From: a virus
Length of the DNA: 28,487 nt
Reading direction: 5' to 3' (one strand)
Virus record (IMG/VR): IMGVR_UViG_3300025138_000251
Coordinates: 1 to 28,487 of that record
Translations under genes and position numbers: made by a program
Notes under the pieces: model-generated
What the model saw: only the letters and a program-made list of their open reading frames with translations
Told to the model about the DNA's origin: nothing
Database searches by the model: none
In this document: positions 3,104 through 28,487 of the stretch, piece by piece
Numbering within the stretch: position 1 is the stretch's first letter
Layout of the letters: every line of letters begins with the position of its first letter

Positions 3104-3772
3104 ATGGCAGGTTTAACAGTAACAACAGCAGAGTCTGAATTTGCAATAACTAGTGCAGAGGTCAAAAATTGGCTGAGGATAGATGGATCAGATGATGACA
3201 GTGTTATATCTACTTTATTAAAAGCATCACATAATTGGGCTAAAAGATACACAGCAAGAAGTTTAACAACACAAACTTTGACCATGTCCATCGACAGTGT
3301 TTATGATGCAGATATCCCAATAAGAGAAGGTAGTTATGTTGGAATCGATCAAGATATAACTAGAAGAAGTATTTTATTACCAGAATCCCCGGTCGCATCA
3401 ATTACTAATGTGAAACATTACGATGATGCAGATAACGAGAGCACTTTTGCATCAAGTAAATATTATTTGGATAAAGCAGGTGTTCCTGCGAGATTTGTTT
3501 TGAGAAATGGAGAAAGCTATCCAACAGGATTAAGAGTTTCTAACGCTATTGAAATTAAATATGTTGCAGGATATGGAGGAACTACAGCAGTTCCAGATGA
3601 TATTAAACACGCTTGTTTGATATACACAGCATGGTTATTTGAGCATAGAGGTGATGGCGCTGAAAGAATGACAGCTCCTTATCAGGCAACTCAATTATTA
3701 CAACCCTACGTTATAAGGCAAATGTCTACTAACCCATACCGAGGCACAGCACATTATGGAGGCATGATTTAG
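3104..3772 (+). CDS. head-tail connector protein (gp6-like)
   Basis: A 222-residue protein whose N-terminal part, ITSAEVKNWLRIDGSDDDSVISTLL followed in the same frame by KASHNWAKRYTARSL, is the characteristic start of gp6-like connectors that form the ring beneath the portal. The middle contains the usual PVASITNVKHYDDADN segment and the C-terminal part YVAGYGGTTAVPDDIKHACL is also typical. It caps the portal after DNA packaging. A GAGG Shine-Dalgarno at 3090-3093 precedes ATG 3104. It opens a connector-to-tape-measure block, yet the portal and capsid genes lie about 15-20 kb away rather than immediately upstream. Confidence 0.88.
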   Translation: MAGLTVTTAESEFAITSAEVKNWLRIDGSDDDSVISTLLKASHNWAKRYTARSLTTQTLTMSIDSVYDADIPIREGSYVGIDQDITRRSILLPESPVASITNVKHYDDADNESTFASSKYYLDKAGVPARFVLRNGESYPTGLRVSNAIEIKYVAGYGGTTAVPDDIKHACLIYTAWLFEHRGDGAERMTAPYQATQLLQPYVIRQMSTNPYRGTAHYGGMI

Positions 3773-4101
3773 TGTCATTGGTTGGCGAAATGAGAAACCG
3801 AGTCGTCTTACAAACTCTAGGTGGATCAACAGACGCAGGGGGAGGGCAAAGCACCTCTTATTCTACAGCCTCGACTGTTTGGGCTAAGGTCGAAAATTTA
3901 TCTGGATCAGAGAGCATCTTCGGTGATCAATTAAGATCCACATCAAATTATAGATTTACGATCAGATATTTTTCAGCGCTCACAGAAAAACACAGACTCA
4001 CATTTAATTCTAAGAATTTTAACATTACCCAGATCAGAGATATCGAAGAGGGCAGAAGAAAATATCAGGAAATATTAGCAATTGAGGGAACAGCGCAATG
4101 A
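3772..4101 (+). CDS. phage head-tail joining protein (head closure)
   Basis: A 109-residue beta-rich protein with the family hallmarks: an N-terminal GEMRNRVVLQT, the DAGGGQSTSYSTASTVWAKVENLSG region, and the C-terminal FNITQIRDIEEGRRKYQEILA. This matches the SPP1 gp16/HK97 gp10-neighbour class of head-closure proteins. The likely start is GTG 3772, overlapping the previous TAG by one base; ATG 3790 (MRNRVV) is the alternative. It ends four bases into the next gene, whose start is ATGA at 4098. Confidence 0.85.
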   Translation: MSLVGEMRNRVVLQTLGGSTDAGGGQSTSYSTASTVWAKVENLSGSESIFGDQLRSTSNYRFTIRYFSALTEKHRLTFNSKNFNITQIRDIEEGRRKYQEILAIEGTAQ

Positions 4102-4583
4102 CAATATCTGTGCAAGTATCAACTAATATCGATAGAAATACTAAGGAAGCAGACAAGCTTTATACTCTAAATGCTCAAAGGCACATCAATAGAATTGCTA
4201 ACACGTTTAGAAATGAAATTTTAAAGTCCATGCAGATGACTCCTAAGACAGGTTTAGAATATGAAAAGAATGATGGCAAAATCCATATAGCATCTTCAGA
4301 GGGTAATCCACCTGCAATTGATACGGGAAGGTTAGCTTCGAGTGTAAGAATATCACCTGCGACCGGGTTTTCAGGGAAAGTGATGAGTGCAAAGGTTTCT
4401 ACGAATGTCGAATATGCAGAAAGGCTTGAGCTATATATGAACAGACCATTTATGTCTAAAGAATCTCAGGCTTATGTTTATACAGTATTCTTTGCTAAAA
4501 AAATACAAAACCAAATCAGTATTAAAAGCCAATTCAGACCAGTTAAGGTCAGATCCAACAAGAAAGGTATATCAATAAAATAA
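4098..4583 (+). CDS. HK97 gp10-like neck/tail protein
   Basis: A 161-residue protein with an N-terminal helix rich in charged residues, then GNPPAIDTGRLASSVRIS and a strand-rich part with VSTNVEYAERLEL. The DTGxLxxS and YAxxLE motifs are typical of the HK97 gp10 family, which bridges connector and tail tube. Position between the head-tail joining and tail completion genes agrees. It starts at ATGA 4098 and its stop overlaps the next ATG (TAATG). Confidence 0.82.
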   Translation: MTISVQVSTNIDRNTKEADKLYTLNAQRHINRIANTFRNEILKSMQMTPKTGLEYEKNDGKIHIASSEGNPPAIDTGRLASSVRISPATGFSGKVMSAKVSTNVEYAERLELYMNRPFMSKESQAYVYTVFFAKKIQNQISIKSQFRPVKVRSNKKGISIK

Positions 4584-4993
4584 TGGGATATCATTCATTC
4601 GATCTGCAGTCTGCTTTATATTCCACATTATCTGGAGACTCCACGCTTGATACTTTGCTCGGCAATAATAAGATATTTGATACTGTTGCCCCTCAAGGCA
4701 CAGCATATCCTTATGTTATTATTGGGACAGAACAGACAAGAGAAGCAGGTACAAAAAGCAAAGATGGAAATGTTTATAACTTAGATATTGAAGTATGGTC
4801 TCAATATAGAGGTCAAAAGGAGATTAAGGAAGTCATGGAACGTTTGTATAATATCTTCAATAATAGTACAATTTCGGTGTCGGGAGCAGATTCAGTGATG
4901 AGTTATGTTGTTTCAGGACTCACATTGGTTGAGCCAGATGGAATAACTCGGCATGGATTAATTAATATAGATTTTACAGTATACGATAATTAA
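4583..4993 (+). CDS. tail completion protein (DUF3168-like)
   Basis: A 136-residue protein starting at the TAATG overlap. The sequence FDLQSALYSTLSGDSTLDTLL, then IFDTVAPQGTAYPYVIIG, and VYNLDIEVWSQYRGQKEIKEV matches the DUF3168/gp17 tail completion family, which forms the tail terminator that attaches the finished tail to the connector. Neighbouring gp10-like and major tail genes support this. It ends 13 bases before the major tail protein. Confidence 0.85.
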   Translation: MGYHSFDLQSALYSTLSGDSTLDTLLGNNKIFDTVAPQGTAYPYVIIGTEQTREAGTKSKDGNVYNLDIEVWSQYRGQKEIKEVMERLYNIFNNSTISVSGADSVMSYVVSGLTLVEPDGITRHGLINIDFTVYDN

Positions 4994-5006
4994 GAGGTAA
5001 TTTAAT

Positions 5007-5420
5007 ATGGCAGTACAAAAAGGCGCAAGTCTAGTAGTTAAAATTGGCAACAGTGCTTCTCCAGAAGTGTTTACGACTGTCGCTGGACTACAAGACACAT
5101 CTATCAGTATCAACCAAGAAACTGTAGATGTCACAAATAAGGACTCTTCAAGAGTTAGAACATTATTAGCACAAGGTGGAGTTAAATCATTCACTATAAC
5201 GGGATCTGGAATATTTCAAGATCATGCATCAGAGCAGTCTGTGTTAACAGCGTTTGATGGATCAGGATTCATAAATTTTCAATTTTTAGTACCAGATTAC
5301 AACACATTCACAGGTGCATTTCAGGTGACGACACTTGATTACACAGGAACATATAATGGCGCAGTTCAATATTCTATGACATTTGAAAGCGCATCCACAG
5401 TGACAATTGCTACTGTATAA
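5007..5420 (+). CDS. major tail tube protein (TP901-1-like)
   Basis: A 137-residue beta-rich protein (MAVQKGASLVVKIG, TVAGLQDTSISINQETVDVT, SFTITGSGIFQDHA) with the layout of the TP901-1-type major tail protein that polymerises into the tube of non-contractile tails. A strong AGAGGT Shine-Dalgarno lies a few bases upstream at about 4993, consistent with high expression. The next gene begins at the last base of its stop. Confidence 0.85.
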   Translation: MAVQKGASLVVKIGNSASPEVFTTVAGLQDTSISINQETVDVTNKDSSRVRTLLAQGGVKSFTITGSGIFQDHASEQSVLTAFDGSGFINFQFLVPDYNTFTGAFQVTTLDYTGTYNGAVQYSMTFESASTVTIATV

Positions 5421-5689
5421 TGTGGTTAGATAAAGAAGTATCAATAGGCAAAGCGAAACATTCAGCTAAAGTGAATGTCAGTGATAGCCTGATCGAAGTA
5501 GAACTGCCATTTTTTGATGAATGGCTATCTTGCTTAAATGAGTCTATTGATCTAGATGGTAAATCATACAATATAAATAATATTCAAAATGTTGGTGATC
5601 GTGACGAATCAATAATGATTATGTTAAAAACAGAGGTTAAAAATGAGCCAAAACGTACTGAGAGCAGAAAAAAATCTTTTAATAAATAA
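5420..5689 (+). CDS. small hypothetical protein in the tail operon
   Basis: An 89-residue protein of unknown function, predicted to be beta-rich at first (VSIGKAKHSAKVNVSDSLIEVEL) with a basic tail (EPKRTESRKKSFNK). It starts at the TAATG overlap with the tail tube gene and its last 47 bases overlap the start of the chaperone gene in another frame. Being between the tube and chaperone genes it is probably a minor tail or assembly factor, but I recognise no family. Confidence 0.7.
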   Translation: MWLDKEVSIGKAKHSAKVNVSDSLIEVELPFFDEWLSCLNESIDLDGKSYNINNIQNVGDRDESIMIMLKTEVKNEPKRTESRKKSFNK

Positions 5690-5984
5690 TAAAGAATATA
5701 AAGCTAAAATGAGTGTTGATACGATCATGAGGATCGAGGATTCGCTCGGTGGATCAATATTTGGTGTCGCTAAAAAGTTTGAAATTCCAGATGTAAGAGT
5801 TAATGAATTACTTGTTATTATTTATCAATGCGTAAGAGCAGGTGGTCATGATGTCACTGAAAAAGATATAAAGTCTTATATATCGAGTGTCGGTGTCGTT
5901 GAGGCTACAAAAGTTGCAGGTGAATTGATTGTTTTAGGTTTAAACGTTGATTCAAATAACGATCAAAAAAAAAGCGAGAGTTAA
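5643..5984 (+). CDS. tail assembly chaperone, GTA-type first component (TAC_11-like)
   Basis: A 113-residue protein with the pattern of the GTA-family chaperone: two short N-terminal strands (KNLLINNKEYKAKMSVDTIM), then RIEDSLGGSIFGVAKKF and VNELLVIIYQCVRAGG. It chaperones the tape measure before tube assembly. The start ATG 5643 lies 47 bases inside the preceding gene; the next Met (residue 23) would remove the conserved strands, so the early start is favoured. The last codons contain nine consecutive A residues (5965-5973), after which a -1 slip would join the next open frame (see 5972-6190). Confidence 0.82.
   Translation: MSQNVLRAEKNLLINNKEYKAKMSVDTIMRIEDSLGGSIFGVAKKFEIPDVRVNELLVIIYQCVRAGGHDVTEKDIKSYISSVGVVEATKVAGELIVLGLNVDSNNDQKKSES
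5965..5973 (+). promoter_or_regulatory. A9 slippery run, candidate -1 frameshift site
   Basis: Nine A residues are read as C-AA AAA AAA A-GC in the chaperone frame, so a -1 slip of the AAA AAA pair costs no base pairs. The frame entered stays open to 6190 and encodes the second chaperone component, which has no good start codon of its own. The stop of the zero frame is at 5982-5984. A9 is also long enough for transcriptional slippage. I see no convincing upstream Shine-Dalgarno stimulator or downstream pseudoknot by eye. Confidence 0.6.
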
Positions 5985-6190
5985 CTGCGAATGATGAACT
6001 ACCTATAAAAAGGTGGTTTGAGGTGTGTGTTGGTATGATCGGTGTTCAACCCGACCAATTCTGGAATATGTCAGTCAATGAAATTTACATAGTAATTCAA
6101 GGTTTCAAAGAATATAATAGTGGAAACTCATCAGATCCAATGGATAAAGATGATCTGGATAAATTAATGGAGATGTTCCCAGACGAATAA
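5972..6190 (+). CDS. second tail assembly chaperone component (TAC_6-like), probably made by frameshift
   Basis: The -1 frame is open from 5960 (after a stop at 5957-5959) to TAA 6188-6190; if entered at 5972 it gives about 72 residues. It contains KRWFEVCVGMIGVQPDQFWNMS followed by VNEIYIVIQG. The W...G..G..P..FW.M...E pattern is that of the short GTA chaperone (RcGTA gp10.1/TAC_6 type). The only internal starts are GTG 6023 and ATG 6035, and both fall after the conserved Trp. That argues for synthesis as a fusion with the upstream chaperone, about 182 residues in total, analogous to lambda G-GT. Independent initiation cannot be excluded. The tape measure ATG overlaps its stop. Confidence 0.7.
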   Translation, partial: KRELTANDELPIKRWFEVCVGMIGVQPDQFWNMSVNEIYIVIQGFKEYNSGNSSDPMDKDDLDKLMEMFPDE

Positions 6191-7959
6191 TGGCTACAGA
6201 ATTAGATAAATTATTAGTGCGCATTGAGGCTGACGTCAGCGATCTCAAAAAAGGGATGAAGTCTGCTAATGATCAGGTCAAAAAATCCTCAACAAATATG
6301 GGTAAATCCTTCAAGGATTTGGGCAGGAAACTCTCAGATATCGGAGGCAAGACACTTAAATTTGGATCAATATTTGCAGGTGTGTTTGGCGCATACCAGA
6401 TTAAACAAGTTGTTGATGTTGGTATTCAGGTTGAGAATCTTAAGGTAAGGCTTAACGCATTATTCGGATCAGTAGAGGAAGGATCAAGGGCTTTTGAGGT
6501 CATGATCGGCTTCGCATCTCGTGTACCATTTGAGCTTTCACAAATTCAAAGAGCATCTGGTAATCTAGCTGTTGTAACAGAGGATGCACAAGAACTAGCT
6601 GATTTATTAGAGATAACCGGGAATGTCGCAGCAATAACAGGCTTATCATTCGAGCAAACTGCTGAACAGATTCAAAGATCCTTTAGTGGGGGAATCGCCT
6701 CAGCGGATATGTTTAGGGAGAAAGGCGTAAGAAATATGCTCGGATTCCAAGCAGGTGTTGAGGTTTCATTATCAGAAACTAAAAAAGCATTTAGAGATGT
6801 GTTCGGGCAAGGTGGTGAATTTGGCAATGCAACTAAAGAATTCGCTAACACCCTTACAGGTACATTATCAATGCTATCTGATAAATTATTGGCATTCAGA
6901 CTTGCTATTTCAGAGTCATTTTTTAAAGAAATCAAGCGTCAATTCGGTGATTTAAATAAAACCTTAGAAGAGAATGAAGCATCAATTAGGAAATTTGGAA
7001 GGGATATTGGTGAATCATTAGCTGAATTTACCAGATCAGTCAAAGATAATCTTGATGAAATAATACTATCATTTCAGGCTCTAGGCACATTTTTAGCAGG
7101 AACAGTTATAGCCAAATTAATAGCAGTACTCGTGAGTATGAATACTATTATAAGAGCAATAGGCATAACTTTGACTGCAGTATCGATTTCACTTAAAAAA
7201 ATTAAGCAATTCGCAGAGCCAACAACTAATGCGCTCACTAATCAAGACAAAGCCTTAACAAGCCTTAACGAGGTTTACAATTTGGCAACAGGTGATTTGA
7301 GAGAATTAGAAGAGACTCAAAAGGATGTTAAAAAATCCACAGAGGAATTATCAGGATTATTTATTGATATGGCGTCAATCATTGAGGGTGTGAAAGAAAC
7401 AGTGAATGATGCAGGGCAATCAATATCAGATGCTTTCGGTCAGGCAATCGTAAGTGGTGAGAAACTTGGTGATTCATTAAAAAATATATTCAAAAGCGCA
7501 GTGGCAGAGATTATATCTCTCGTATTCCATCTAACAGTTATGAAACCATTGCTTGATGAAATCAATAGAAAATTAGATGACACAAATGCCAAGCAGAAAA
7601 ATGTCAGAGAGGATCAAATCACAAATGCTTTTATCGGGGGATTCACAGGTGGTAGTGGTGGTGGATTCGGTGGATTTATGGCTAATGGTGGTCAAGTCTC
7701 GCCTAACACTCCCTATATGGTAGGTGAAAAAGGGGCTGAAATGTTTGTGCCTCATTCATCTGGTACGATCGTCGCCAATAAAGATATGCAGGGATCTGGA
7801 GTAAATATCACTCAAAATATCTCATTTAGCACAGGTGTCGTCCCAACAGTGAGAGCCGAGGTGATGAATTTACTTCCTCAAATTCGCAATGAAACTGTAC
7901 AGGCTGTTGCAGAGAGTCGATCTCGTGGTGGATCATTCGCTAAAACATTCGGAGCTTAA
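6190..7959 (+). CDS. tail tape measure protein
   Basis: A 589-residue, mostly helical protein directly after the chaperone pair, the invariant location for the tape measure. The N-terminus (LDKLLVRIEADVSDLKKGMKS) is typical, a hydrophobic segment near residues 300-335 and Gly-rich stretches near 475-495 follow, and the C-terminus has the common GGQVSPNTPYMVGEKGAEMF block followed by VP. It sets tail length and helps DNA entry. At roughly 1.5 angstroms per residue it predicts a tail of about 85-90 nm, short for a siphovirus. Start ATG 6190 overlaps the preceding TAA. Confidence 0.9.
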   Translation: MATELDKLLVRIEADVSDLKKGMKSANDQVKKSSTNMGKSFKDLGRKLSDIGGKTLKFGSIFAGVFGAYQIKQVVDVGIQVENLKVRLNALFGSVEEGSRAFEVMIGFASRVPFELSQIQRASGNLAVVTEDAQELADLLEITGNVAAITGLSFEQTAEQIQRSFSGGIASADMFREKGVRNMLGFQAGVEVSLSETKKAFRDVFGQGGEFGNATKEFANTLTGTLSMLSDKLLAFRLAISESFFKEIKRQFGDLNKTLEENEASIRKFGRDIGESLAEFTRSVKDNLDEIILSFQALGTFLAGTVIAKLIAVLVSMNTIIRAIGITLTAVSISLKKIKQFAEPTTNALTNQDKALTSLNEVYNLATGDLRELEETQKDVKKSTEELSGLFIDMASIIEGVKETVNDAGQSISDAFGQAIVSGEKLGDSLKNIFKSAVAEIISLVFHLTVMKPLLDEINRKLDDTNAKQKNVREDQITNAFIGGFTGGSGGGFGGFMANGGQVSPNTPYMVGEKGAEMFVPHSSGTIVANKDMQGSGVNITQNISFSTGVVPTVRAEVMNLLPQIRNETVQAVAESRSRGGSFAKTFGA

Positions 7960-22513: not shown

Positions 22514-22571
22514 TAATTATTGACAGGTTATTTTTATTATGGCAATTGAAACAATTAACGAAGAGGAATTA

Positions 22572-23216
22572 ATGGACACAAACACTTTGGATCTGTCATG
22601 CGAGTTCAAACGCATAGATACAGATGAAGATGGATCATTCGAGGGATATGGAAGCGTTTTCAATAATAAAGATTTAGGAAACGATGTGATTAGGAAAGGA
22701 TCATTTTCCCGGACGATCGCTGAGAAGAAACCTAACCAGATCAAATTATTATATCAACACAAAACTGATGAGCCTATCGGTGTGATAGATGCCATAGAAG
22801 AAGATAGTAAAGGTTTAAAAATAAAAGGTCGCCTAGCAATGGGGACACAAAAAGGCAGAGAAGTATATGAGCTCATGAAGATGGGTGCATTAGATTCAAT
22901 GTCAATCGGTTATCGTTTAGCGCCAGATGGATATAAATATGATGATAAAAACAAAAGGCGTGTAATCAAAGAGGTTGATCTCATGGAAATATCTATGGTC
23001 ACCTTTCCAATGAATCCAAAAGCTAAAGTTACTAAAGTAAAACGTAGCGACTTTGATGAAATGGACGTGAGAGAAAAAGAAAACTATCTATGTGAAGTAG
23101 GTGGGATGTCTAATTCCCTTGCAAAACACAGTGCGAGTATACTGCATAAATCTTTTAATAAAGAGCAATGTGATGTTGTCGATAGTATTAAGCATTTAAT
23201 TAACATACTTAAATAG
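22572..23216 (+). CDS. HK97-family prohead protease
   Basis: A 214-residue serine protease that cleaves the capsid delta domain. The active-site block is visible: His63 in LLYQHKTDEPIGV, and Ser111 in the GALDSMSIGYR block, with EGYGSVFNN at the N-terminus and EISMVTFPMNP ahead of the end. I chose ATG 22572 rather than the in-frame ATG 22539 because GAGGAATTA lies just upstream of it, while 22539 has no Shine-Dalgarno. The capsid gene starts ten bases after the stop. Confidence 0.9.
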   Translation: MDTNTLDLSCEFKRIDTDEDGSFEGYGSVFNNKDLGNDVIRKGSFSRTIAEKKPNQIKLLYQHKTDEPIGVIDAIEEDSKGLKIKGRLAMGTQKGREVYELMKMGALDSMSIGYRLAPDGYKYDDKNKRRVIKEVDLMEISMVTFPMNPKAKVTKVKRSDFDEMDVREKENYLCEVGGMSNSLAKHSASILHKSFNKEQCDVVDSIKHLINILK

Positions 23217-23226
23217 AGGACAAAAA

Positions 23227-24438
23227 ATGTCAGAAGAAGTGAAAGAAGTCTTGGACAGTCTTGGATCTACATTTGAAGAGTTTAAATCTGAAAATGATAA
23301 AAGACTAAAAGAGATCGAAAGCAAAGGTCATGCTGATCCTATCCTTCAAGAAAAAGTTGATAAAATGTCAGAGGATGTTGCTAGTTTATGTGAAGCTAGA
23401 CAGTCTATCGAAATTCAACAAAAAAACCTTGAAGATGCAACAGCAAAAATAGAAAAATTAGAAACAGTTATTAACAGACCTGAATCAGGTGGATCTAAAG
23501 AAGTAGATTACCAAAAACAAGTGTTTGATAAATGGCTAAGAAAAGGTGAAGTAGATCCTGAAGAGAGAAAGGCTTTATATGAGTCAGATGATACTCTTGG
23601 TGGATTTTATGCGCCTACTGAGTACGTGGCAGATCTTATTAAGACTGTGACAGAAATATCTCCTATTCGTTCAATTGCGAGAGTAAGACAAACAGATAAG
23701 AGAGGGATTGAGATTCCAAAAAGAACTGGTCAGTTCTCTGCATCATTTGTTGCAGAACAAGGTACCAGATCAGAAACAACAGGGTACACAACAGGCATGA
23801 TGTCAATTGATGCTCATGAATGCTTTGCAGAAGTTCATATCTCACAAGCTATGCTTGAAGATTCTGCGTTTAATTTAGAATCCGAAATGGGTACTGAATT
23901 TGCAGAACAATTTGCAAAACTTGAAGGTACTTCTTTTGTTGCAGGTAATGGTGTCGGAAAACCTTTAGGCTTCACTGACAGCAGTGCTGGAGTTGGATCT
24001 ACTAATTCAGGATCTGGAACGGCTCTAACTGCCAATGGTATATTAGACTTAGTTTATGCTATCAAGTCTGAATATCTAGGCAACTCACGTTTCGTCATGA
24101 ACAGAACAACTCTTGCTAAACTTCTACAATTAGAAGATGGCGAAGGTCAAAAAATATTCCACGTAGGTTTAAACCTTGTAAATGGAGCTCCTTCTACAAT
24201 AGCAGGTCATCCATATACATTAGCTACAGATATGCCTGACATAGGTGGTAGTGCTAAACCGATTGCTTTCGGAGACTTCTCTAAAGCATACACAATCGTG
24301 GATAGAGTTAATATCTCAGTAATGAGAGATCCATACTCACAAGCTTCTTCAGGTAACATTAAATACCTAGCAAGAAAAAGGGTCGGTGGAACAGTAGTTC
24401 TTGCCGAAGCAATTAGACTACAGAACATTAGTTCATAA
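23227..24438 (+). CDS. major capsid protein, HK97 fold
   Basis: A 403-residue protein. Residues 1-90 are a charged coiled-coil delta domain (EEVKEVLDSLGSTFEEFKS, IQQKNLEDATAKIEKLETVI) that acts as internal scaffold, then a Ser/Gly linker (PESGGSKE), likely the cleavage zone. The mature HK97 fold follows: GGFYAPTEYVADLIKTVTE, FVAEQGTRSETTGY, FVAGNGVGKPLGF, and the C-terminal ISVMRDPYSQA. A GAGGA Shine-Dalgarno precedes ATG 23227. The protease upstream and decoration-type gene downstream fit the classic module. Confidence 0.94.
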   Translation: MSEEVKEVLDSLGSTFEEFKSENDKRLKEIESKGHADPILQEKVDKMSEDVASLCEARQSIEIQQKNLEDATAKIEKLETVINRPESGGSKEVDYQKQVFDKWLRKGEVDPEERKALYESDDTLGGFYAPTEYVADLIKTVTEISPIRSIARVRQTDKRGIEIPKRTGQFSASFVAEQGTRSETTGYTTGMMSIDAHECFAEVHISQAMLEDSAFNLESEMGTEFAEQFAKLEGTSFVAGNGVGKPLGFTDSSAGVGSTNSGSGTALTANGILDLVYAIKSEYLGNSRFVMNRTTLAKLLQLEDGEGQKIFHVGLNLVNGAPSTIAGHPYTLATDMPDIGGSAKPIAFGDFSKAYTIVDRVNISVMRDPYSQASSGNIKYLARKRVGGTVVLAEAIRLQNISS

Positions 24439-24450
24439 CGGAGGACTATT

Positions 24451-24882
24451 ATGAGAGATTTATCTAACAACGTAGTTGCCGTAGTGGGAACAGTTCCTGC
24501 TGTAGTAACAGCTGACGCTAACGGTACTGGAGTAGATTTGAAAGGTTTTGAATCTGCAATGGTTATTGTTAATACAGGCATAGAGGGAGATACTTTAGGT
24601 AGTACTGTCAAATTTGATTTCATTCTTGAAGAATCTGATGACAACTCTACTTATAGTGCTGTAACAAGCTCAACATCTGTAACAGAAACTTCTGTTGATA
24701 GTAGTGGTATCTTTTTAACATTAGATGCAAACGGTGAAACACCACAAATCAAACAAATTGGTTATATTGGTGGGAAACGTTATATCAGATGTAAAATTGA
24801 TGCTACAGGTTCCCATTCAAATGGAACACCAATGTCAATTGAGGTAATAAAAGGTAATCCACAGGATTCTGAGGATGCTTAA
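24451..24882 (+). CDS. probable capsid decoration protein
   Basis: A 143-residue, beta-rich acidic protein: AVVTADANGTGVDLKGFESA, KFDFILEESDDNSTYSAV, and QIGYIGGKRYIRCKIDAT. Proteins with ADxNGTxVDLxGFxSA and an I-G-Y-I-G-x-K-R-Y motif, placed directly after the capsid gene, are typical decoration or head-surface proteins of alphaproteobacterial phages. The role is inferred from position and pattern. A CGGAGGA Shine-Dalgarno lies upstream of ATG 24451. Confidence 0.75.
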   Translation: MRDLSNNVVAVVGTVPAVVTADANGTGVDLKGFESAMVIVNTGIEGDTLGSTVKFDFILEESDDNSTYSAVTSSTSVTETSVDSSGIFLTLDANGETPQIKQIGYIGGKRYIRCKIDATGSHSNGTPMSIEVIKGNPQDSEDA

Positions 24883-24885
24883 TTA

Positions 24886-24937
24886 GTCTAGTTATCTAGA
24901 CAAACGAGGGTAGGGTTTGCTCATTGTCCCTGCCCTC
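24886..24937 (+). terminator. two tandem hairpins after the capsid and decoration genes
   Basis: Hairpin 1: GTCTAG (24886-24891), TTAT loop, CTAGAC (24896-24901), a perfect six-pair stem. Hairpin 2: arms GAGGG-T-AGGG (24906-24915) and CCCT-G-CCCTC (24928-24937), ten pairs including one U-G pair, with a 12-base loop. No T-run follows either, so they are not classic terminators. They could attenuate read-through into tail-tip genes or protect the capsid message from 3' exonucleases. Confidence 0.5.
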
Positions 24938-24951
24938 ACCTAGAGGTGAAT

Positions 24952-25155
24952 ATGTGTAACAGCACACCATACTCGGATAAAGAGATAGCAATTATAAAAG
25001 CTATCTACAAGATTGATCCTAAAGCTAAATTTCGTGTGAAAGGATCATTAGAGAATCGTATTGATTTTTTATATGGTGGAATCGAATGGGAATCAGAGCC
25101 TATCAGCTGGGAAACAGTGGTAGAAAAAATGTATGAATTAGAGGTTAACAAATGA
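24952..25155 (+). CDS. hypothetical protein, 67 residues
   Basis: ATG 24952 is favoured over GTG 24946 because GAGG (24943-24946) is then at a proper distance. The product is short (STPYSDKEIAIIKAIYKIDP, KFRVKGSLENRIDFLYGGIE, SWETVVEKMYEL), with an N-terminal helix and a beta/alpha end. No family recognised. Its stop overlaps the next ATG. It may be a structural accessory since it is in the head-to-tail stretch. Confidence 0.6.
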   Translation: MCNSTPYSDKEIAIIKAIYKIDPKAKFRVKGSLENRIDFLYGGIEWESEPISWETVVEKMYELEVNK

Positions 25156-25397
25156 ATATTAAAATGATCAAAGAAACAGTAGCTAGTTGTAATGAAAGCG
25201 GTAATGCTACTAAAGTTTACAAACAAGATGAAATTATAGAGTGCGATAATCAATGGCAAATCGATCTCGCAAACAATTTAGTTGCATCTGGATTGGCGAT
25301 GGAATGTAAAACTGTAGCACCAAAAGAAACAAAAAAGGCTGAAAAGAAAGCTACAGCGCCAAAAGTTAAAAGAAAAAAATCAGTTAAGAAGGACTAA
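25152..25397 (+). CDS. hypothetical protein with Lys-rich tail, 81 residues
   Basis: Starts at ATGA 25152. The first 50 residues (KMIKETVASCNESGNATKVY, DNQWQIDLANNLVASGLAM) form a small domain that resembles short proteins found between capsid and connector genes of phages. The remaining 30 residues are Lys/Ala-rich (KKAEKKATAPKVKRKKSVKK), probably disordered and nucleic-acid-binding or surface-exposed. The stop codon directly precedes the next ATG with no gap. Confidence 0.62.
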   Translation: MNIKMIKETVASCNESGNATKVYKQDEIIECDNQWQIDLANNLVASGLAMECKTVAPKETKKAEKKATAPKVKRKKSVKKD

Positions 25398-25973
25398 ATG
25401 TCTAGATCAATAGGATCAGATTTTTCTAGTCAATTATCATCTGGTGTTATCAGACCCTTTTATGCGATATCAGTCGGATTCAAAGATTCAACACTTAGAT
25501 TATGGACTGGTATTGGCGATCTATTTTTTGATGGCTACACTTTCATTGGATCTGGAAATTTATTATCTATATCCAATGTGAATGAAACAGCTGATATCAG
25601 GGCATCTGGTGTCAAAGTGTCATTGTCAGGTCTTGATTCATCTATATTAAGCTCATCAATTTCTCAGGACTCAGAGGGTGGAGTCGTTAAGCTTTATTTT
25701 GGTGTTTTAACTACGACAGAAAATGCAACTGCTGTGGTGGATTCTCCATATCAATTATTCGAGGGATCATTAGACACAATCCAAATAACAGAGACAGGTG
25801 AAACTGCTATGATAACAGTCACTGTTGAAAATAAACTTATCATGTTGGAAAGACCTAGAAACAGAAGATATACAGATCAAGACCAAAAGAATTTATTTGC
25901 AGGAGATAAAGGATTAGAATTTGTAGATGACTTACAAGACAAGGAGTTAATCTGGGGTGGTGGAACGAGATAA
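25398..25973 (+). CDS. minor tail protein (DUF2163-type)
   Basis: A 191-residue protein. The start SSQLSSGVIRPFYAISVGFK, the core RASGVKVSLSGLDSS and the ending ERPRNRRYTDQDQKNLFAGD are typical of the tail-tip protein located before the J-like gene in lambda-like and marine phages, related to the GTA gp13/DUF2163 class. The domain is shorter than a complete DUF2163 protein, so it may be a reduced version. It ends 17 bases into the acyltransferase gene. Confidence 0.72.
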   Translation: MSRSIGSDFSSQLSSGVIRPFYAISVGFKDSTLRLWTGIGDLFFDGYTFIGSGNLLSISNVNETADIRASGVKVSLSGLDSSILSSSISQDSEGGVVKLYFGVLTTTENATAVVDSPYQLFEGSLDTIQITETGETAMITVTVENKLIMLERPRNRRYTDQDQKNLFAGDKGLEFVDDLQDKELIWGGGTR

Positions 25974-26385
25974 CGCACGAATATATGAAGTTATAAATTT
26001 TTATAAACAATTTCATCAATATTCGTACAACACAGAAAGCGAATTATTCTATCATATATACCCCTCATTCGTGCATGGGCAATATAGAATATATCGTGAT
26101 GGTAACGATATAATCGGTTTTTGTAATTGGTGCTTTTTAAACGATTTAACTCAAGCTAAATTCATCAAATCAGGGATTATAAGTCCAGATCAATGGAAGT
26201 CAGGTGAAAATTTATGGATTCATGATTTAGTTGCATCTAAAAATACTGTTAGAATAGCCAAAGATATAAAAAAAATGTCTTTGATCATGATAGGCAATAG
26301 AAAGAATATGAATTATTTAAGAATTAAGAACAGCGAGATATTTGCAAAGCGCACATTTCAAACTAAAAACCACTGGGGTAAATAA
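25957..26385 (+). CDS. HlyC-like toxin-activating acyltransferase homologue
   Basis: A 142-residue protein. The pattern YHIYPSFVHGQYRIYRDGND followed by IIGFCNWCFLND, and the W80-KSGENLWIHD90 segment before LVASK, follows HlyC (LPAI..QY.L...D..PVAYCSWA.L, then DW.SG...W..D..AP). H20 and D90 align with HlyC's catalytic His23 and Asp92, as far as a hand alignment allows. HlyC transfers fatty acyl groups from acyl-ACP to lysines of RTX proteins. Similar genes occur in marine and cyanophages next to tail-tip genes. Start GTG 25957 (AAGGAG about ten bases upstream) overlaps the preceding gene. Confidence 0.72.
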   Translation: MVERDNARIYEVINFYKQFHQYSYNTESELFYHIYPSFVHGQYRIYRDGNDIIGFCNWCFLNDLTQAKFIKSGIISPDQWKSGENLWIHDLVASKNTVRIAKDIKKMSLIMIGNRKNMNYLRIKNSEIFAKRTFQTKNHWGK

Positions 26386-28487
26386 TGGGTGGAATAGTAA
26401 GAAGTATTGGGAGAGCGATAGGATCAGTAGCAAGTACTGTAGGATCAGTCGTATCTCACGCTGTATCTGGATTCAACACAGGAAATTTTTTAACAGGCGT
26501 TGCAATTTCTTTCGTAGGTAGTCTTTTAGCTCCTAGACCAAGTGTTCCTAATTCATCTACACAGCAGACAGCATACGATACTCAAGCTAACACTAGATCC
26601 GTTATGTCAAAACAGCCTTTGACGACAAGAGAAACTGTTTATGGAACGTCTAAAAAATCAGGGTCTATTATATTTATGGAAACCACTGATAACAACAAAC
26701 AGTTACATTTATTAATTCAAATAGCATCTCATGAGATTGAATCATTTGATAGAATATATTTTAATGATGAAGAACTAACTTTAGCAAGACAAACTGACTT
26801 ATTTGGGAACATAATAAATGATGCGAATGGTATTCATAGATTTTACATAACAGCACCGAGTAAGTATGCACAGAATACAAGAACTATAGTGAACAATTCA
26901 CCATTTGGATTAGGTGTTTCCTATGGTAATAAAATTAAACTTCATACAGGTAGTGATGACCAATTAGCTGATGCAGATTTAGTAGGTCTAGTGAGTGAGT
27001 GGACTTCATCTCATAGACTTAGAGGGATAGCATATATATATCTACAATTAGAATATGATGCTGACACTTTTCCTAATGGCATTCCTAATGTCAGTGCAGA
27101 AATTAAAGGCAAGAAACTTTTTGATTTTAGAGATTCATCGACAGCATTTTCGAGTAACCCTGCACTTTGTATATATGATTATTTAACTGATACAAGATTA
27201 GGTTTAGGAGTGAGTCGTGATGAAATAGACACAACATCTTTCACAGCAATGGCAAATATATGCGATCAAAATATAAATCTTTCAGGTGGTGGAACAGAGA
27301 AACAATATGAATGTCATGGGATTGTTTACAGTGATATATCTCCCATGGATGTGCTTAATGATTTACTATCGTCATGCGCAGGAGTTTTGACTTACACAAA
27401 TGGTAAGTTCGTTTTAAAAGGTGGAGCATTCAGCTCACCATCTATAACTTTGGGAGAAGATGATTTTATTGGTGGATTTAATTTATTAACTAAAACATCA
27501 AGAAAAGAATTATTTAATACTGTTAAAGGTGTTTTCACGTCTGACGAGTCAAATTGGCAACCCACAGATTATCCAGCTGTCACAAGCACCACATTTTCAG
27601 ATGCAGATGGGGAAACGATAACTGTAGATGTAAACCTCGCATTTACAAAATCGAGCAGTATGGCGCAGAGGATCGCAAAAATAACGCTGTTTAAGAACAG
27701 AGAACAAATGATCCTGTCAGCAAGATTGCGATTGACCGCTTTCACTTTGCAGGTTGGAGATACAGTCCAGATCAACAACTCGAGATTCGGTTTCAATAAT
27801 AAAATATTTGAGGTAGCTGATTGGACGTTCGTGGGAGAATCAGAAGAAGTCGGTGTTGATGTCATTTTAAAAGAAACATCATCATCTGTTTATGATTGGA
27901 ACGCAGAAGAGAGCGAGTTTACTTTAAATAACACAACTCTTCCATCAGCAGAGGATGTAAACCCACCATCTATTGTGGTGACAGATGAATTAAGAGCATA
28001 TGCAGAAACACCTATAACAGTTATGAAAGTAGTATGTTCTAGTAGTCAGGGAACAACTAATGAATTTGAGGTAGAGGCACAAAATACAAATGAAGCAGGA
28101 AGTGAATTTATAACTCTAGGTAGAAGTAAAGGTAACATATTCGAGTTAGTCAATGCACAAGATGGAGCAATATATAACGTGAGAGCCAGATCAATAAATG
28201 CTTTTAACGTGCATTCATCATTCACTACAACAACTCACGAAGTTATCGGTAAGACAGCACCACCTTCTGATGTGACTAATTTTTCTAGCAATGTTGTTGG
28301 AGATATTGTGCATCTTAATTGGACACCTGTGTCTGACTTAGATTTATCACATTACATAGTTAGGCACACACCTTTAACTTCAGGTGCAAAATTTGAAGAA
28401 GGTTTAATTGTAGCTAAAAAAATAGGTAAACCTGCAAACTCAATTACACTTCCTGCACAGACAGGAACTTACATGATTAAAGCTATT
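26385..28487 (+). CDS. J-like tail tip/host-specificity protein, 3' end outside window
   Basis: 701 codons are visible with no stop. It starts at TAATG overlapping the acyltransferase stop. The N-terminal 60 residues are Gly/Ser/Val/Ala-rich with a hydrophobic helix (FLTGVAISFVGSLLAP). A Phage-tail_3-like central region follows (TRETVYGTSKKSGSIIFMET, ALCIYDYLTDTRLGLGVSRD, PMDVLNDLLSSCAGVLTYTN), and a fibronectin-III-like section begins near residue 630 (APPSDVTNFSS, HLNWTPVSDLDLSHYIV). The family forms the tail tip and binds the receptor. Truncated only by the end of the sequence. Confidence 0.85.
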   Translation, partial: MGGIVRSIGRAIGSVASTVGSVVSHAVSGFNTGNFLTGVAISFVGSLLAPRPSVPNSSTQQTAYDTQANTRSVMSKQPLTTRETVYGTSKKSGSIIFMETTDNNKQLHLLIQIASHEIESFDRIYFNDEELTLARQTDLFGNIINDANGIHRFYITAPSKYAQNTRTIVNNSPFGLGVSYGNKIKLHTGSDDQLADADLVGLVSEWTSSHRLRGIAYIYLQLEYDADTFPNGIPNVSAEIKGKKLFDFRDSSTAFSSNPALCIYDYLTDTRLGLGVSRDEIDTTSFTAMANICDQNINLSGGGTEKQYECHGIVYSDISPMDVLNDLLSSCAGVLTYTNGKFVLKGGAFSSPSITLGEDDFIGGFNLLTKTSRKELFNTVKGVFTSDESNWQPTDYPAVTSTTFSDADGETITVDVNLAFTKSSSMAQRIAKITLFKNREQMILSARLRLTAFTLQVGDTVQINNSRFGFNNKIFEVADWTFVGESEEVGVDVILKETSSSVYDWNAEESEFTLNNTTLPSAEDVNPPSIVVTDELRAYAETPITVMKVVCSSSQGTTNEFEVEAQNTNEAGSEFITLGRSKGNIFELVNAQDGAIYNVRARSINAFNVHSSFTTTTHEVIGKTAPPSDVTNFSSNVVGDIVHLNWTPVSDLDLSHYIVRHTPLTSGAKFEEGLIVAKKIGKPANSITLPAQTGTYMIKAI

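Follow-up and report, generated by a model that had tools for sequence, protein, structure and literature searches.

In a marine phage, the tail chaperone very probably comes in two versions owing to a slip, of the ribosome or possibly of RNA polymerase, on nine consecutive A residues near the end of the first chaperone frame, as judged from comparison of related sequences. The sequence studied is an IMG/VR virus record of 28,487 bases, which is referred to as a whole as the window. Our preferred reading, which we consider probable, is lambda-type -1 ribosomal frameshifting in a gene of the G/G-T type, leading to a fusion of 182 aa. Frameshifting of this kind is an established mechanism for tail chaperones in lambda and many phages (PMC5009743) and is described for long-tailed phages in general (Xu, Hendrix and Duda, 2004, as cited in PMC5009743). 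The locus thus belongs to a known kind of system, the lambda-type frameshifted tail chaperone, to which it adds a well-supported new and conserved case in the GTA-type protein family. The relevant features, all on the plus strand, are the following:

5007..5420 (+), major tail tube protein, given as context (PF06199, E 1.6e-32)
5643..5984 (+), first chaperone part, counterpart of lambda gpG, GTA-type TAC of the Phage_TAC_11 family, 113 aa (open reading frame, PF11836)
5965..5973 (+), A9 slip run (sequence; nine invariant columns among 43 relatives)
5966-5972 (+), in-phase heptamer A AAA AAA inside the A9 run (sequence)
5972..6190 (+), second chaperone part, counterpart of lambda T, read after the putative slip, 72 codons and a stop, Phage_TAC_6 family (translation of the -1 frame, PF09550)
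5985..6013 (+), stretch from the first stop to the conserved Trp, whose translation requires that the frames be joined (substitutions by codon position)
5996..6019 (+), hairpin present in part of the clade only, of doubtful role (folding)
6190..7959 (+), tape measure protein, expected client of the chaperone, given as context (phrog_1538, tail length tape measure, E 1e-10)

The first frame starts at ATG 5643, behind a Shine-Dalgarno sequence with a duplex energy of -7.0 kcal/mol, and terminates at TAA 5982-5984 with the C-terminus DQKKSES. Its codons across the A9 run are CAA AAA AAA AGC. In the -1 frame no stop occurs between 5960 and a TAA at 6188-6190, the end of which overlaps with the start codon ATG of the tape measure gene (6190). 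This frame contains no ATG, GTG or TTG ahead of its first conserved Trp (6014-6016), the earliest start codons being GTG 6023 and ATG 6035. An initial annotation made from the sequence alone had described the run at 5965-5973, the -1 frame open to 6190, the missing start and a fusion of 182 residues, and all of this agrees with the sequence, with a slip at 5966-5972 giving 110 + 72 aa. The genes follow the order tube, chaperone, tape measure, with one small open reading frame between the major tail protein gene and the chaperone gene. The tape measure protein also matches TMP_3 (E 3.7e-10), slightly below the Pfam cut-off. The locus resembles the lambda gpG/gpG-T gene in its location, with the major tail protein gene on one side and the tape measure gene on the other, in the -1 overlap close to where the first frame ends, in the slippery heptamer and in a second part that lacks a start of its own. 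It differs in the protein families involved (TAC_11/TAC_6 here, G/T in lambda) and in the slip site, which is G GGA AAG in lambda and an A9 run here.

Profile searches assigned the first part to PF11836 (Phage_TAC_11; E 1.2e-9, 38.5 bits, cut-off 27.8) and the second to PF09550 (Phage_TAC_6; E 1.4e-9, 38.7 bits, cut-off 23.4). Both matches exceed the curated cut-offs, in accordance with the earlier assignment of the two parts to GTA-type tail chaperones. Foldseek searches with the first part against the PDB and with the second part against BFVD yielded no match with E <= 0.001, and among phage records the closest proteins were none for the first part and weak matches only for the second. The predicted structure of the first part (pLDDT 84) consists of a folded domain followed by a disordered C-terminal tail (residues 104-113), which places the slip point in a linker. 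In the model of the second domain (mean pLDDT 75) the first helix comprises residues 16-27 of the open frame, and the start codons at 6023 and 6035 correspond to residues 22 and 26. Initiation at one or the other would, according to this model, remove half or nearly all of the first predicted helix, which bears out the previous suggestion that these starts would truncate the domain.

Relatives were collected with the tube protein as query, which gave 79 viral contigs, in most of which both chaperone parts were detected by profile searches. Removal of identical sequences left 48 distinct chaperone regions, window included. The second part lies in the -1 frame, with an in-phase A AAA AAA ahead of the first stop, in 45 of these 48, and an in-phase X XXY YYZ heptamer is hence conserved at the overlap. 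In a divergent pair of contigs (L077/L079, one distinct sequence) the A-run is replaced by G GGA AAA G, a lambda-like motif without a long homopolymer. Their second part is still found in the -1 frame, and no ATG, GTG or TTG occurs in it as far as 14 codons beyond the Trp. Two exceptions were observed, one with A11 and the other frame offset (L025) and one with a TAA immediately ahead of the run, where relatives have GAA (L029); sequencing error or decay could account for both. None of the relatives has an ATG or GTG ahead of the Trp of the second part, and a TTG five codons ahead of it is present in a single group of the close relatives (L033/L036). The comparison of homologous loci which the initial annotation had proposed as a check is therefore in line with its claim.

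The A9 run is the longest A or T run within the 28,487 bases. One such run in an AT-rich genome is not surprising by itself, but its place, phase and conservation are not a matter of chance, and a chance origin was ruled out on the grounds of conservation and phase. None of the nine A columns changes on a tree of 43 sequences, the next longest invariant stretch of the alignment being 5 columns, and none of 20,000 shuffles preserving codon position matched the observed length of the invariant run. All 92 Lys codons at the slip site are AAA, compared to 330 AAA and 104 AAG (24% AAG) elsewhere in the gene, although these counts come from related sequences and thus do not represent independent events. 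Depending on the relative, the run starts 14, 20 or 32 nt before the end of the first stop, which indicates that it is retained while its surroundings move.

A further line of evidence comes from the bases that separate the first stop from the conserved Trp (5985-6013). They would be untranslated if the second part began at 6023 or 6035. Among 43 sequences, the changes in this stretch fall on positions 1, 2 and 3 of the -1 frame codons in the ratio 32/11/48, which is incompatible with an equal distribution (chi-square about 22.7, 2 degrees of freedom, calculated by hand). The excess at third positions suggests that the stretch is read in the -1 frame, and it is thus very probably translated. 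The comparative evidence for a joining of the two frames is strong, and the central claim of the initial annotation, that the two chaperone parts are connected by slipping back one base on the A-run, is supported by the conserved run, its phase, the missing start and the coding constraint.

From these observations we infer that a slip occurs and that the ribosome is its agent, as well as its frequency and the roles of the products in assembly. The majority of ribosomes would translate 5643-5984 and release the chaperone of 113 aa, while a minority would move one base back on A AAA AAA (5966-5972) and continue to 6190, yielding the fusion of 182 aa. The Phage_TAC_6 domain would be produced solely through this slip. 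As in lambda, the short form, present in excess, would be expected to cover the product of the adjacent gene, the tape measure protein, and the rare fusion would be expected to recruit the tail tube protein.

Several points count against ribosomal frameshifting at this site, among them the two relatives (L025 and L029) that depart from the pattern. The A9 run is longer than needed, as seven A residues would do, and A_AAA_AAA is less efficient than A_AAA_AAG as a shift site in E. coli (PMC5009743). Regarding stimulatory structures, which tailed phages often seem to lack (PMC5009743), the hairpin at 5996-6019 folds better than shuffled sequences when taken as a short segment (z -2.98), while no such advantage was found in a longer segment. 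It starts 23 nt past the heptamer, and 8 of 32 relatives cannot form one of its central pairs. RNAalifold predicted no conserved structure downstream of the heptamer in the relatives. It was therefore not accepted as a stimulator.

The length of the run is also an argument for transcriptional slippage, in which some mRNAs would acquire one additional A as RNA polymerase copies the A9 run and ribosomes would read these normally. All 46 distinct A-run sequences with the second part in the -1 phase contain at least nine A residues, whereas a ribosomal heptamer needs only seven, and the length of about nine A or T expected of slippage sites is reached here (A9) and in all A-type relatives (at least nine). 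Bacterial RNA polymerases slip on runs of this length, nine A residues, and it is also from nine onward that such runs begin to be avoided in coding sequences (PMC1088944). A case in point is dnaX of Thermus thermophilus, for which transcriptional slippage on an A9 run has been described (PMC1088944; PMC5009743). It is similar in having nine A residues within a coding sequence and a functional alternative frame, yet slippage leads to a shorter product there and to an extension with a conserved domain here. The two A residues in surplus are, however, partly explained by coding (Glu/Gln before, Lys/Asn in the -1 frame after), and polymerase slippage is an improbable explanation for the G GGA AAA of the divergent pair as well as for the GGGAAAC or short-run AAAAAAG of distant phages. 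The occurrence of such non-homopolymer motifs in divergent and distant relatives makes it more likely that the ancestral mechanism was ribosomal. As a whole, we regard transcriptional slippage as rather unlikely to be the route used by the phage, while polymerase and ribosome may also slip together. It might be, as a tentative possibility, that the chaperone ratio is set by polymerase slippage, alone or together with the ribosome, in this clade and by ribosomal heptamers in its relatives, which would amount to a switch of mechanism at a single conserved junction. The initial annotation had named polymerase slippage as another route to the same product, and this stands: the protein (...QKKKRELT...) is identical whether the ribosome slips by -1 or the mRNA has gained one A, for which reason mass spectrometry cannot tell the two mechanisms apart.

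An arrangement as separate genes, with the second part initiated internally at GTG 6023 or ATG 6035, appears highly improbable in comparison. A Shine-Dalgarno-like GAGGTG precedes ATG 6035 in the window (duplex -9.4 kcal/mol), the ATG codon is found in 43 of 43 aligned relatives, and the second part has its own ATG or GTG in about half of the bacterial GTA-like loci. This Shine-Dalgarno sequence is not conserved, however, with a median of -2.7 in the relatives as compared to -7.1 at the start of the first gene, and a relative with 91% identity (L002) reaches only -3.0 at this position. Relatives with a well-placed ATG and a Shine-Dalgarno sequence for the second frame had been named in advance as the observation that would speak for separate genes. 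In addition, L077 has no ATG equivalent to 6035, an internal start would delete most of the first predicted helix together with the conserved Trp, and it would leave the invariant run and the coding constraint upstream unexplained. Finally, homopolymer runs are error-prone and the window is an IMG/VR virus record, but a sequencing or assembly error, with one A more or less in the real genome and a single fused gene, has a negligible probability and was rejected, since the same phase recurs in dozens of independent contigs from other samples with diverged sequence, all of which contain the first frame's own stop; only an error made systematically in every sample would escape this argument.

The preferred reading of lambda-type frameshifting is consistent with the organization of more distant phages. 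Both chaperone parts were seen in eight distant records of phages or phage-like elements, and in each of them the second part lies in the -1 frame and is annotated from a later ATG. In phages of this sort the second part is thus cut short by annotation. In-phase motifs at the junction are GGGAAAC (in three), GGGAAAA, AAAAAAG and CCCTTTA, while two of the eight, MW091529 and MW462191, which resemble bacterial GTA loci, contain no canonical heptamer by a strict rule. In RcapNL, both parts are apparently encoded in one frame of 191 aa, as judged by eye. A -1 frameshift in the tail chaperone gene has been reported for most of the Rhodobacter capsulatus phages of one study (PMC8601537). Moreover, the gp93/gp94 chaperone pair of phiCbK-like Caulobacter phages is reported to employ AAAAAAC, and that of Colossus GGGAAAC (PMC3556154). 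These phages share with the one studied here the -1 shift, the A-rich heptamer and an alphaproteobacterial phage context with GTA-related tail genes; they belong to another phage group and are likened by arrangement, not by chaperone family.

Separately, an unannotated -1 open frame was seen ahead of the tape measure gene in HTVC111P (2352-2884) and CRP-811 (1801-2284). In both cases it follows an annotated tail protein or chaperone and is accompanied by an in-phase AAAAAAG or AAAAAAC. These frames are probably unannotated frameshift products and are candidate parallels to the chaperone pair studied here.

In gene transfer agents, tail chaperones 1 and 2 correspond to RcGTA g10 and g10.5, which are described as two genes (PMC11409702). 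The comparison with RcGTA is one by publications only: the first part belongs to the same Pfam family (pfam11836 is named for g10), whereas RcGTA is described with two separate genes and without mention of a frameshift. Bacterial loci were sampled as 80 GTA-like loci plus 24 matches among 190 genomes of the class searched, of which 102 were usable, and their second part is likewise of the Phage_TAC_6 family. In these alphaproteobacterial loci, the second part has an ATG or GTG start in 50, no start in 38, TTG only in 7 and another frame offset in 7. An in-phase X XXY YYZ heptamer is present in 31 of the 38 start-less loci (1 each in the other two phases) and in 13 of the 50 loci with a start (Fisher p 3.7e-7, an optimistic value given that the loci are related). 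Among the heptamers, A AAC CCT and C CCT TTG/C recur, and G GGA AAC is also seen. Many of the GTA heptamers (CCCTTTC, TTTCCCT) overlap the codons of the PFPW motif of the second domain and may be a coincidence. The initial annotation had assumed that GTA-type pairs are usually separate genes, which holds for the 50 of 102 loci with an ATG or GTG. It does not hold for the eight distant records, all in the -1 phase, nor for the 38 start-less loci, and the arrangement is thus less exceptional than had been suggested.

The start-less loci with heptamers suggest that frameshifting takes place in gene transfer agents themselves, and the survey as a whole suggests the same recoding in many alphaproteobacterial GTAs, where descriptions treat the two chaperone genes as separate. 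If borne out, this would bear on the question of whether domesticated particles still depend on a viral recoding signal. No description of a frameshift in GTA tail chaperone genes was found in the open-access literature. As an observation in its own right, about 40% of the alphaproteobacterial GTA-like chaperone pairs (L096-L200) lack a start for the second part, mostly with an in-phase heptamer.

Apart from the chaperone locus, the order of modules in the window is unusual. Head-tail connector, tube, chaperone and tape measure genes are located at its start (3104-7959), and capsid protease, capsid and then tail genes extend up to its end (22539-28487). A gene for a HlyC-type lysine acyltransferase (25957-26385; PF02794, E 2e-15) lies immediately ahead of that for a large tail protein, and the same order is found in the pelagiphage HTVC111P (gp50 then gp51).
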